Shown here in pieces: positions 49,926 through 54,237 of a stretch of DNA of 64,000 bases; positions within the stretch are counted from its first letter, which is position 1; each line of letters opens with the position of its first letter. This DNA comes from Alphaproteobacteria bacterium (GTDB lineage Bacteria; Pseudomonadota; Alphaproteobacteria; Reyranellales; Reyranellaceae): contig VGCH01000013.1 of assembly GCA_016870115.1 (NCBI GenBank), forward strand, positions 1 to 64,000, written 5' to 3'. The notes beneath the pieces were generated by a model that was not told where the DNA came from, searched no databases, and was given only the letters and a program-made list of their open reading frames with translations. The position numbers and the translations under genes are program-made.

Positions 49926-51166
49926 CCGCGCCGCCCGGCGGCGGCGAGCCGCGCTCCGCCTGGGCCCCCTTCGCCAACCGCAGCTTCCTGACACTATGGG
50001 TCGCCAACGTCGCCTCCGATATCGGCGGCTGGATGCAGACCACGGGCGCCGCCTGGGAGATGACCAGCTTCACCAGCGATCCGCTGTTCGTGGCGCTGCT
50101 GTCGGTCTGCAGCACGCTCCCGCTCTTGCTGTTCAGTCCGATCGCGGGCGTGCTGGCCGACCGCTTCGACCGTCGCCGGTTCTTCATCCTGTGGCAGATC
50201 TGGACCATGGCGGCCGCGGCGTTCCTCGCGCTGCTGGCGTGGAGCGGTCGGCTCGATCCCTGGTGGTTGCTCGGTCTCACTTTCTGCATGGGCATCGGCC
50301 ACGCCATGAAGGGCCCGGCGTGGCACGCCATGGTGCCGGAGGTCGTGCCGGGCGCGATCCTGCGCCAGGCGATCGCACTCAATAGTGCTGGCTTCAATCT
50401 CGCCCGCACGCTGGGTCCGATGTTTGGCCAGTTCCTGCTGGGTTTCGCGGGCGTGGCGCTCCTGTTCGCGATCAACGCCGTTACCTATGTCGGCACGATC
50501 ATGGCCATGCTGTCCTGGCGGCGCCCGGCCGAGGCGCGAGCCGATCAACGGCGCGAAGGGTTCATGGAATCCTTCGCCGCCGGCCTGCGCTTCGTGCGCG
50601 GTTCGGTCGAATTGAAAGCCATCTTCACCCGGGGCCTGTGCTTTTTCGTACCCGGCATCGCCTTTGGTACGCTCCTGCCGGTGATCGGCCGCTTCGAGCT
50701 CGGCCTGGACGCCTTCCGCTTCGGCGTCCTCTACGGCGTGTTCGGCGCGGGCGCGGTCGCAGGTGCTGCGCTGATGCCGACCATCAACCGCCTGCTGGGG
50801 CCGGACCGCGCCAACATCTGGGCGATGGGGCTGCATGCCGCGGTGAATCTGGTGGCCGCGCTGGAGATGAACATCTGGACCGTGGGCGCGGCGGTGACCA
50901 TCAACGGGGCCTGCTGGATCACCGTCATCGCCAACAACAACATGGCGACGCAATCGGTCCTGCCCAACTACATGCGGGCGCGCGGCATGGCGGTGAACCA
51001 GATGGTGTTCTTCGGCGCCATGGTGGGCGGCTCCCTGCTCTGGGGGCAGATCGCAGCCTGGTTCGGGCCGCAGACCGCGATCGTCGCCTCCTGCGCGGCG
51101 CTGGTGCCGCTCACCGTCTTCGCCGCCACCATCCGCCTTCCGGGCGCCGCCTTGCCCCGCGCCTGA
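49922..51166 (+). CDS. MFS transporter (enterobactin-exporter-like) coupled to ceramide synthase
   Basis: A 414-residue MFS protein with about eleven to twelve helices. The signature loop is GVLADRFDRRRFF near residue 80, and NSAGFNLARTLGPMFGQFLLG is typical of the EntS/DUF894-like group. Its ATG overlaps the ceramide synthase stop (ATGA), so the two are translationally coupled. A role in moving a sphingolipid intermediate or headgroup is suggested by position; the family usually exports small molecules, and no substrate can be read from the sequence. Confidence 0.78.
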   Translation: MTAPPGGGEPRSAWAPFANRSFLTLWVANVASDIGGWMQTTGAAWEMTSFTSDPLFVALLSVCSTLPLLLFSPIAGVLADRFDRRRFFILWQIWTMAAAAFLALLAWSGRLDPWWLLGLTFCMGIGHAMKGPAWHAMVPEVVPGAILRQAIALNSAGFNLARTLGPMFGQFLLGFAGVALLFAINAVTYVGTIMAMLSWRRPAEARADQRREGFMESFAAGLRFVRGSVELKAIFTRGLCFFVPGIAFGTLLPVIGRFELGLDAFRFGVLYGVFGAGAVAGAALMPTINRLLGPDRANIWAMGLHAAVNLVAALEMNIWTVGAAVTINGACWITVIANNNMATQSVLPNYMRARGMAVNQMVFFGAMVGGSLLWGQIAAWFGPQTAIVASCAALVPLTVFAATIRLPGAALPRA

Positions 51167-51179
51167 GCGCCAAAGTGTG

Positions 51180-51575
51180 ATCGCACGAACACAAGTCAGT
51201 GGAAAAAAACCCTTGTGGGCCAGAATCTTCTTGAGTCCAGATCAATTGATTGTAGATACCGAAGCACGACGCCCACGCACGTGCCGCTGGCCCAAAGTGG
51301 TTATGCAACGACGGAAAGCGTCCTTTTTGGCAGTGCCGGTTTCAAGCCGGGTCCGGGAAGGAGCTTCTGAGATGGTTGCTTTCAGTGCGGGGCGCGCTCC
51401 CCGCTATCGTGTGCACGGCCTGGCGGCCACCCGCCGGGCCACCTACGCCGCCCTCATCGGCCGGAAGTTTCCTCGGTCCAGTATCGCCTGACGCGCCGCG
51501 CCCCGCAGGGGGTGTCCGGTTGCGTCGCGTTGTCCACCGACTGAGCTTCCTTTTGTCCAGGGGATCCCCCCAGCG
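51180..51575 (+). promoter_or_regulatory. Long structured leader of ornithine decarboxylase (speF-leader-like)
   Basis: A 409-base gap precedes the decarboxylase gene. It is much longer than any other spacer here and lower in GC in its first 200 bases. It contains a 39-codon upstream ORF (51372-51491), stems inside that ORF (GCGGGG-N6-CCCCGC at 51387-51404 and GGCC/GGCC-based pairing near 51417-51440), CCCCGCAGGGG at 51501-51511, and the palindrome GGGGATCCCC over the decarboxylase ribosome site. Alphaproteobacteria are known to carry a conserved RNA leader of about 400 nt upstream of speF, and this fits in place and length. I could not run a covariance search. Confidence 0.65.
51372..51491 (+). 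CDS. Arginine-rich 39-residue upstream ORF, candidate regulatory leader peptide
   Basis: ATG at 51372 is preceded by AAGGAG with an eight-base spacer, the best ribosome site in the leader. The peptide starts MVAFSAGRAPRYRVHG and has seven arginines in 39 residues, including an RR pair, and it ends 84 bases before the decarboxylase ATG. Arginine-rich leader peptides that sense ornithine or arginine are known upstream of speF in enterobacteria; similarity of logic, not of sequence, is claimed here. It overlaps two strong stems, so translation would change the RNA fold. Confidence 0.55.
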   Translation: MVAFSAGRAPRYRVHGLAATRRATYAALIGRKFPRSSIA

Positions 51576-52706
51576 ATGACCGAGCGTATTTTCCGATATC
51601 TCCGCGAGCAACAGCCCGAGACGCCGTGCCTGGTGATCGACCTCGACATGGTCGAGCACAACTTTCGGCGGATGCGCGAGCTCCTGCCGGCGGCGCACAT
51701 CTTCTACGCCATGAAGGCCAACCCGGCGGCGCCGATCCTGACGCGCCTGGCCGGTCTCGGCTCGCGCTTCGACACGGCGAGCCGCGGCGAGATCGAGATC
51801 GCGATGGCGACCGGCGTGTCGGCGGACCGCATCTCGTTCGGCAACACGATCAAGAAGGAACGCGACATCGCCTGGGCCTACCAGCAGGGCGTGCGGCTGT
51901 TCGCCTTCGACAGCGAGGCGGAGCTGCAGAAGCTCGCCCGCGTGGCGCCGGGCGCGCGCGTCTTCTGCCGCGTGCTGGTCGATTGTGGCGGCGCCGAGTG
52001 GCCGCTCAGCCGCAAGTTCGGCTGCTCGCCCGAGATGGCGAAGGACCTGCTGCGCAAGGCCAAGGCGCAGGGGCTCGACGCCTATGGCGTGTCCTTCCAT
52101 GTCGGCAGCCAGCAGACCGATCTCGAGCAGTGGGACAAGGCGCTGGGCCAGATCTCGCAGATGTTCTTCGCCCTGGTTGAGGAGGGCGTCGACGTTCGCA
52201 TGGTCAATCTGGGCGGCGGCTTCCCGGCGCAGTATCGCGCCGAGGTACGCGGCATCGAGGCCTACTGCGAGGCGGTGACGCGCGCGCTGGTCCGCCATTT
52301 CGGCAACCGCATGCCCGAGGTCATCATCGAGCCCGGCCGCTCGATGGTGGGCGACGCCGGCGTGCTGCAGACGGAGGTCGTGCTGATCTCGCGCAAGTCG
52401 GCGAACGACCGCAAGCGCTGGGTCTATCTCGACGTCGGCAAGTTCGGCGGGCTCGCCGAGACGATGGACGAGAGCATCAAGTACCGGCTGCGCACGCCGC
52501 GCGACGGCACGCGCACCGGCCCGGTGATCGTCGCGGGGCCGACCTGCGACTCCGCCGACATCCTCTACGAAAAGACCGACTACCGGTTGCCGCTCTCGCT
52601 GAAGGTCGGCGATCGCATCGACATCCTGTCGACCGGCGCCTACACGACGACCTACTCGTCGGTGGCGTTCAACGGCTTCCAGCCGCTGAAGTCGGTCTGC
52701 ATCTGA
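51576..52706 (+). CDS. Ornithine decarboxylase (alanine racemase-fold, type III)
   Basis: A 376-residue PLP enzyme of the eukaryotic-like ODC/diaminopimelate decarboxylase family. The PLP lysine is Lys47 in FYAMKANP, the phosphate-binding glycine run is VNLGGGFPAQ, and the active-site cysteine is Cys324 in GPTCDSADILYE. CDSAD is typical of ornithine (or lysine/ornithine) decarboxylases. It makes putrescine in the cytosol, which the next gene can use for homospermidine. Its expression is probably controlled by the leader upstream. Confidence 0.9.
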   Translation: MTERIFRYLREQQPETPCLVIDLDMVEHNFRRMRELLPAAHIFYAMKANPAAPILTRLAGLGSRFDTASRGEIEIAMATGVSADRISFGNTIKKERDIAWAYQQGVRLFAFDSEAELQKLARVAPGARVFCRVLVDCGGAEWPLSRKFGCSPEMAKDLLRKAKAQGLDAYGVSFHVGSQQTDLEQWDKALGQISQMFFALVEEGVDVRMVNLGGGFPAQYRAEVRGIEAYCEAVTRALVRHFGNRMPEVIIEPGRSMVGDAGVLQTEVVLISRKSANDRKRWVYLDVGKFGGLAETMDESIKYRLRTPRDGTRTGPVIVAGPTCDSADILYEKTDYRLPLSLKVGDRIDILSTGAYTTTYSSVAFNGFQPLKSVCI

Positions 52707-52800: not shown

Positions 52801-54237
52801 ATGGCCGCCAGGAAAGCCGCGCGCGCGACCAAGCTCACAACCTTCAAGGGCCGTCTGGTCATGGTCGGCTTCGGCTCGATCGGCCAGGGCGTGCTGCCCC
52901 TCATCCTGCGGCACATCGGCATCAAGCCGGCGCAGATCACGATCATCTCGGCTGAGGATCGCGGCGGCCTGCCCGAGGTCGCGCGCTATGGCGTCACCTT
53001 CATCGAAAAGCGCCTGACCAGAGCCAACTACGCCAAGACGCTGCTGCCGCTGCTGGGCAAGGGCGACTTCCTCGTGAACCTCTCGGTCGAGGTCGCCTCG
53101 ACCGCGCTGGTCGAGCTCTGCCAGAAGCAGGGGGCGTTCTACATCGATACCTGCATCGAACCCTGGCCCGGCGGCTACACGGATAGCTCGCTGTCGGTGT
53201 CGCGCCGCTCCAACTACGCGCTGCGCGACGCGATGCTCCGGCTGAAGCCGCGCTTCCGAGGCGGTCCCACGGCGGTCGTGGCGCATGGCGCCAACCCGGG
53301 TCTGGTGTCGCACTTCGTGAAGCAGGCCCTGCTCAACATCGCCCGCGACACCGGCGTGAAGGCCGCCGTTCCCAAGGACCGCGAGGGCTGGGGGCGGCTC
53401 GCCCGCCGGCTCGGCATCAAGACGATCCATATCGCCGAGCGCGACACCCAGGTCTCGAACCATCCCAAGGAAGTGGGCGAATTCGTGAACACCTGGTCGA
53501 TCGACGGCTTCGTGTCGGAAGGCACCCAGCCCGCCGAGATGGGCTGGGGCACCCACGAGAAGGCACTGCCGCCCGACGGGCGGCGCCATGCCTTCGGCTG
53601 CGACGCGGCGATCTACCTCAATCGGCCGGGCCTGCTCACGCGGGTGCGGACCTGGACGCCGCTCGAGGGCCCGTTCCACGGCTTCATCATCACCCACAAC
53701 GAGTCGATCTCGATCGCCGACTACTTCACGCTGCGCGAGGGCAAGCGGGCGGTCTACCGGCCGACCGTGCACTACGCCTATCACCCCTGCGATCAGGCGA
53801 TCATGTCTATGCACGAGATCGCCGGAAAGAACCTCCGCCAGCAGAAGCGCCAGCGCCTGATCGTCGATGAGATCGTGTCGGGCCGCGACGAGCTGGGCGT
53901 GCTGCTGATGGGCCACAAGAAGGGCGCCTACTGGTACGGCAGCCAGCTCGACATCCATGAGACGCGCAAGCTCACGCCCTACAACAACGCGACCTCGATC
54001 CAGGTCTGCGCGCCGGTTCTGTCGGGCATCATCTGGGCGCTGGAGAACCCCGACCGTGGCATCGTCGAGGCCGACGAGATGGATTTCGCCCGCAACCTCG
54101 AGATCTGCATGCCGTATCTCGGCCCGGTCGTCGGCAAGTACAGCGACTGGACCCCGCTCAAGGACCGCGGCGGCCTCTTTCCGGAGGACCTCGACCGCTC
54201 CGATCCCTGGCAGTTCAGGAACTTCCGGGTGGGGTAG
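52801..54237 (+). CDS. hss: Homospermidine synthase
   Basis: A 478-residue bacterial homospermidine synthase. The NAD-binding start is LVMVGFGSIGQGVLPLILRH, with DTCIEPWPGGYTD, VAHGANPGLVSHFVKQAL and GCDAAIYLNRPG as family blocks and NHPKEVGEFVNTWS near residue 220. It joins two putrescine (or putrescine and spermidine) moieties into homospermidine with NAD as recycled cofactor. The ATG at 52801 has GGAGA upstream. With the preceding decarboxylase it gives a two-step route from ornithine. Its 3' end overlaps the convergent TRAP gene by 23 bases. Confidence 0.93.
   Translation: MAARKAARATKLTTFKGRLVMVGFGSIGQGVLPLILRHIGIKPAQITIISAEDRGGLPEVARYGVTFIEKRLTRANYAKTLLPLLGKGDFLVNLSVEVASTALVELCQKQGAFYIDTCIEPWPGGYTDSSLSVSRRSNYALRDAMLRLKPRFRGGPTAVVAHGANPGLVSHFVKQALLNIARDTGVKAAVPKDREGWGRLARRLGIKTIHIAERDTQVSNHPKEVGEFVNTWSIDGFVSEGTQPAEMGWGTHEKALPPDGRRHAFGCDAAIYLNRPGLLTRVRTWTPLEGPFHGFIITHNESISIADYFTLREGKRAVYRPTVHYAYHPCDQAIMSMHEIAGKNLRQQKRQRLIVDEIVSGRDELGVLLMGHKKGAYWYGSQLDIHETRKLTPYNNATSIQVCAPVLSGIIWALENPDRGIVEADEMDFARNLEICMPYLGPVVGKYSDWTPLKDRGGLFPEDLDRSDPWQFRNFRVG

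Follow-up and report, generated by a model that had tools for sequence, protein, structure and literature searches.

An upstream reading frame ending in Ser-Ser(AGU) and a speF-like RNA element precede ornithine decarboxylase in Reyranellaceae and other alphaproteobacteria

The window, the whole 64,000-nucleotide stretch of alphaproteobacterial DNA that we analyzed, carries an ornithine decarboxylase gene (odc) followed by a homospermidine synthase gene (hss) (Table 1). The decarboxylase also matches lysine/ornithine decarboxylase structures (E 5e-64) and is 79 to 88% identical to the enzymes of named Reyranella, Vineibacter, and relatives. Records titled Enhydrobacter aerosaccus (L144, L164, L168, and L171) hold Reyranella-type decarboxylases and leaders. 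The leader contains an upstream ORF (uORF) that runs from an ATG at 51372 to a TGA at 51491 and encodes a peptide of 39 residues, MVAFSAGRAPRYRVHGLAATRRATYAALIGRKFPRSSIA, seven of which are arginines. The gap between its stop codon and the decarboxylase ATG at 51576 is 84 nt, and the ribosome site of the decarboxylase sits within GGGGATCCCC (51560 to 51569). An earlier note on this DNA had described the 39-codon ORF, its ribosome site, the GC-rich stems, and the 84-nt gap, and all are present in the sequence and its predicted fold. The leader is more stable than shuffled sequences (z of -2.4; 1 of 100 shuffles equally good). A consensus promoter scan of the leader found no promoter, and there is no plus-strand terminator in 51100 to 51650 of the kind that would mark an amino acid attenuator.

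Table 1. Features of the decarboxylase leader and the adjoining genes, in window coordinates
Feature	Position	Strand	Basis or remark
Candidate promoter TTGAGT-16 nt-TAGATA, just 5' of the RNA element	51231..51258	+	by eye; weak
speF-like RNA element (model R1), ends at the uORF start codon	51264..51374	+	cmsearch 105 bits, E 6.7e-22; the window belongs to the R1 training set
RNA element, P1 arms	51268-51272 / 51318-51322	+	alignment, consensus fold
RNA element, invariant GCAACGACG	51305-51313	+	alignment, consensus fold
U-rich tract, predicted partner of the uORF Shine-Dalgarno sequence	51323..51329	+	RNAalifold consensus, 35 leaders
uORF Shine-Dalgarno sequence AAGGAG	51358..51363	+	sequence; conserved
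uORF, 39 codons	51372..51491	+	61 distinct Reyranellaceae sequences have it, as do many other families
Hairpin GCGGGG-CGCGCT-CCCCGC over uORF codons 6-11 (AGRxPR)	51387..51404	+	sequence and fold; kept in Reyranellaceae
Ser-Ser codons TCC AGT	51477..51482	+	AGT invariant
Hairpin beginning inside the uORF stop codon	51490..51526	+	fold; covariation
Decarboxylase ribosome site region GGGGATCCCCCCAGCG	51560..51575	+	sequence; near-invariant in Reyranella
Ornithine decarboxylase (PLP fold III)	51576..52706	+	Pfam Orn_Arg_deC_N E 8e-58
Homospermidine synthase, next gene after the decarboxylase	52801..54237	+	PDB homospermidine synthase E 1.6e-172

The uORF is conserved. All 61 distinct Reyranellaceae uORFs keep the start codon, the Shine-Dalgarno sequence (SD), the frame, and the end motif, at lengths of 32 to 45 codons. 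Nearly all have an N-terminal AGRxPR, and the C terminus reads S-S-I/M, usually preceded by P. Across families, an open frame of 15 to 62 codons begins at the uORF start in 49 of 50 leaders, compared with 23.4 expected. The earlier note had named synonymous bias as a check on the ORF. In Reyranellaceae, synonymous changes were not significantly more frequent than expected, either over the uORF as a whole (0.185, against a null value of 0.197) or in its parts. Because this test was negative, the body of the peptide is probably nearly free or weakly constrained. The arginines, on which the earlier note had placed its emphasis, do not hold up as the conserved feature: they are kept at few positions and in Reyranellaceae only, and two of them lie inside the GC hairpin. 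The AGRxPR codons coincide with that hairpin, and their conservation may be at the RNA level.

Between families, the peptide is otherwise unrelated and similar ends recur, namely GRKNPLSSM, DPSSLS, EPSSQI, KTSI, and MTSI. An (S/T)S(AGT) motif lies within the last nine codons in 32 of the 50 leaders (not all independent, several being from the same family), compared with 0.29 expected from dinucleotide shuffles; its count in the +1 and +2 frames is zero. Among 70 uORFs chosen for Ser-Ser near the end, the second Ser codon is AGT in 69, whereas AGT accounts for 24 of the 2,847 Ser codons (0.84%) in 134 decarboxylase genes. This difference argues that the codon is constrained in addition to the residue. 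As judged by sequence comparison, the conserved feature appears to be a C-terminal (S/T)-S with AGT as the second codon, rather than arginine. An invariant AGU is unusual, because leader ORFs are normally conserved in peptide and not in one synonymous codon.

It is conceivable that selection keeps the AGU and the GC hairpins for RNA structure or for protein binding and that the open frame is a by-product. The position of AGRxPR over a hairpin and the lack of synonymous bias would fit. However, the start codon, SD, and frame are kept while the length changes in steps of three, and the only thing in common between families is an AGU whose motif never occurs out of frame. We consider this explanation highly improbable.

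A second alternative is a nascent-peptide sensor like SpeFL, in which ornithine, arginine, or a polyamine binds to the ribosome that carries the completed peptide and arrests it. The conservation of a C-terminal P(x)SS or GRKNPLSSM in several families is consistent with such a sensor. So is the use of all six Ser codons for the first Ser across families, although these uORFs were chosen for Ser-Ser, so this is a measure of codon variety and not independent proof. However, the invariant AGU suggests decoding as much as peptide, the distance from motif to stop ranges from 1 to 8 codons, and the arginines are lost beyond Reyranellaceae. Four uORF peptides had no match to any Pfam family at E<=0.1; therefore, we see no sign in them of the SpeFL domain (DUF2618, HIRRT core), and the earlier note was right that the sequences differ from enterobacterial speFL. 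We regard a SpeFL-like sensor as unlikely, and sensing of ornithine or arginine by the nascent peptide, for which motif conservation is the basis, is not supported so far.

The earlier note had also assigned the leader to the speF RNA motif. The Rfam speF model (RF00518) misses the window even at E<=10, and none of 61 relatives reaches its gathering score (37 bits). A single weak RF00518 match in one relative was set aside, as it lies on a different contig from the decarboxylase of that genome. Leaders of orthologous decarboxylases class-wide have in common CACGTGCC, TGGCCC, the invariant block of Table 1, and a T-rich block, all at fixed spacing. The consensus fold of 35 aligned leaders contains a closing helix, GACGC/GCGUC, and an inner helix with near-invariant pairs, and RNAalifold pairs the U-rich block with the SD of the first ORF. 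In this pairing, 93.8% of cells are paired and changes are mostly one-sided. The RNA core is nearly invariant and so offers modest covariation; one relative (L036) has a compensating U-A to C-G change in the element.

We built a covariance model, R1, from the 35-leader alignment, leaving out the RF00518 loci. Of the 14 RF00518 loci, R1 recovered nine at E<0.005 (best E 2e-5) and a further two with weaker matches (E 0.007 and 0.05), in the corresponding place of the leader. Leaders of both types stand 5' of orthologous decarboxylases (57 to 62% identical). Because R1 recognizes genuine RF00518 loci at the same position, we place the window leader in the speF RNA family, on a branch that has diverged. 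Therefore, the speF assignment survives as a remote relationship, reached through R1 and not through the Rfam model. R1 occurs in 61 of 372 alphaproteobacterial genomes and RF00518 in 14 of 385; among 200 sampled genomes of the phylum, R1 matches fell in alphaproteobacteria only. RF00518 leaders fall in one clade of the decarboxylase tree (support 100/100). The Rfam model covers just one branch of a much broader family.

The earlier note held that a frame missing where the RNA is conserved would count against its proposal. This is the case in part of the family, because RF00518 leaders proper have no such uORF. Where other leaders have SD...ATG, these leaders (L043 to L056) have a conserved AAGAGG...TTGCC. 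A GCGCCTCCA-CGC block is conserved in them too, and its CUCC is a possible pairing partner for the decarboxylase GGGAG.

Several families have no separate uORF: the ATG that follows the RNA element is the start codon of an N-terminally extended decarboxylase. This architecture involved at least three separate changes on the decarboxylase tree. In one leader (L080), the uORF stop overlaps the decarboxylase start; in others, the spacer between uORF and decarboxylase is about 80 to 240 nt. The element probably acts on the first start codon, because in some lineages its ATG starts the decarboxylase. If the element gates the first ORF, a separate uORF should therefore relay the same sign. The R1 element is also found 5' of hss, paralogous decarboxylases, and AdoMet decarboxylase, usually with an ORF of 8 to 51 codons between, and it fronts a polyamine regulon.

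Individual copies of the element differ in their ORFs. The copy before AdoMet decarboxylase (L249, 49 bits) is followed by an 8-codon ORF, MSGSSLRG, in which the two serines are encoded by TCC AGT. Copies before homospermidine synthase (L245 to L247 and L268) have 14-codon ORFs, several with a proline-rich APxPR. Others precede a second PLP decarboxylase, about 30% identical (L232 to L250, L258, L259, and L266), with very short ORFs such as MIASCTTGG and MLDIGQKALVP. A strong match (88 bits, L251) precedes a glutamine-amidotransferase-like gene; the genome that carries it has no close decarboxylase match.

The earlier note had placed a stem at the end of the uORF, and a covarying hairpin does start at the stop codon. 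In 54 Reyranella leaders, 84.9% of its cells pair, and 38 cells carry double changes, a count that none of 500 shuffles equaled. A ribosome paused 1 to 8 codons before the stop would cover the 5' arm of this hairpin. In partition function calculations, a simulated ribosome at SS(AGU), at the stop, or at the start did not change the accessibility of the decarboxylase start (0.351 with the ribosome masked at SS(AGU) versus 0.351 without). This result also goes against the suggestion of the earlier note that CCCC runs mask that start. In Reyranella, the CCCCG arm of the uORF is complementary to the decarboxylase CGGGGA. We did not adopt this pairing because GGGG is missing from Vineibacter-type start regions. 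A frameshift from the uORF into odc was dropped because the spacing between them differs among relatives.

We also considered a Rho site in the spacer before odc. Spacers are C-rich in many relatives (C minus G of at least 8 in 25 of 61, compared with 6% of random segments), but C minus G is -1 in the window. C-rich spacers would suit a uORF that is a translated passenger, such that the RNA element regulates, translation shields the mRNA from Rho or RNases, and neither the peptide nor the AGU matters. The absence of synonymous bias and the 9- to 16-codon uORFs of unrelated sequence before other genes point in the same direction. Against it stand the SS(AGT) enrichment, about 100-fold over shuffles, and the spacer of the window, which is not C-rich. 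We doubt that the uORF is such a passenger and rate this as improbable.

We lean toward a two-stage translational relay, in which the RNA element gates the uORF and ribosomes pause near the uORF end. Comparison of leaders supplies its components, namely the RNA family, the uORF, the SS(AGU) motif, and the post-stop hairpin. In the first stage, the extended-speF element, reaching from near the transcript start to the uORF start, would control uORF initiation by pairing its U-rich tract with the uORF SD. It presumably responds to a polyamine end product, a signal that the gene set suggests. In the second stage, ribosomes on the uORF would pause near its end at Ser-Ser(AGU) and hold the post-stop hairpin open. 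The open hairpin would then permit odc-hss expression via Rho, mRNA decay, or decarboxylase initiation. We infer the pause, the signal, the sign (uORF translation activates odc), and this output step. Our proposal that uORF translation promotes odc-hss expression and that Ser-Ser(AGU) is the pause follows the example of Salmonella orf34. Translation of that uORF is needed for speF, keeps Rho from terminating transcription, and governs a hairpin downstream of the stop (PMC6386406).

Several results weigh against the relay. Folding lends no support to a direct unmasking of the decarboxylase start, synonymous changes are not in excess, the uORFs of several lineages are very short and lack SS(AGU), and covariation in the RNA core is modest. 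In addition, when the Agrobacterium tumefaciens speF RNA, of a family described in 2005, was examined by in-line probing, none of six compounds bound (ornithine, lysine, diaminopimelate, putrescine, cadaverine, and spermidine; PMC1273637). Homospermidine was absent from the compounds tried (PMC1273637), and a review restates that speF has no known ligand (PMC11477304). More tentatively, RF00518 could be one branch of a class of polyamine-sensing alphaproteobacterial RNAs whose ligand lies outside the compounds tried, with homospermidine as the prime candidate, and whose targets are odc, hss, and speD; in many lineages, the output would pass through a relay ORF with a codon-specific Ser-Ser(AGU) pause. 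We regard this wider proposal as possible and rather doubtful.

Our literature search of open-licence papers found the 2005 description of speF, the failed ligand tests, and the unrelated enterobacterial leader, and no alphaproteobacterial leader uORF; earlier reports may exist. The speF RNA, an orphan since 2005, now extends to many families and to a regulon that includes hss and AdoMet decarboxylase. Leader-ORF control appears to be joined here to an orphan RNA family that is much enlarged. A conserved ORF was found where no structure could be assigned. Taken together, these results name candidates for both the ligand and the pause codon. The RNA element and the conserved small frame ending in Ser-Ser with one invariant rare codon suggest that ribosome traffic on this frame controls polyamine synthesis.

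The window leader resembles RF00518 leaders in the orthologous decarboxylase downstream, in the CACGTGCC, GCAACGACG, and TTTTTGG blocks, and in a CCGG hairpin, and differs in lacking the large insertion. Like SpeFL/ORF34 of Enterobacteria (DUF2618), it places a small ORF 5' of ornithine decarboxylase and a hairpin past the stop of that ORF. However, the conserved part of the window uORF is Ser-Ser(AGU) and that of SpeFL is HIRRT, and the window uORF is preceded by a structured RNA proposed to gate its start. The SpeFL-linked decarboxylase is of a different fold class from that of the window. Leaders of the mgtL type combine a riboswitch with a leader ORF (PMC6386406); they are like the window leader in uniting RNA structure and a short ORF in one leader, with unrelated sequences and genes.
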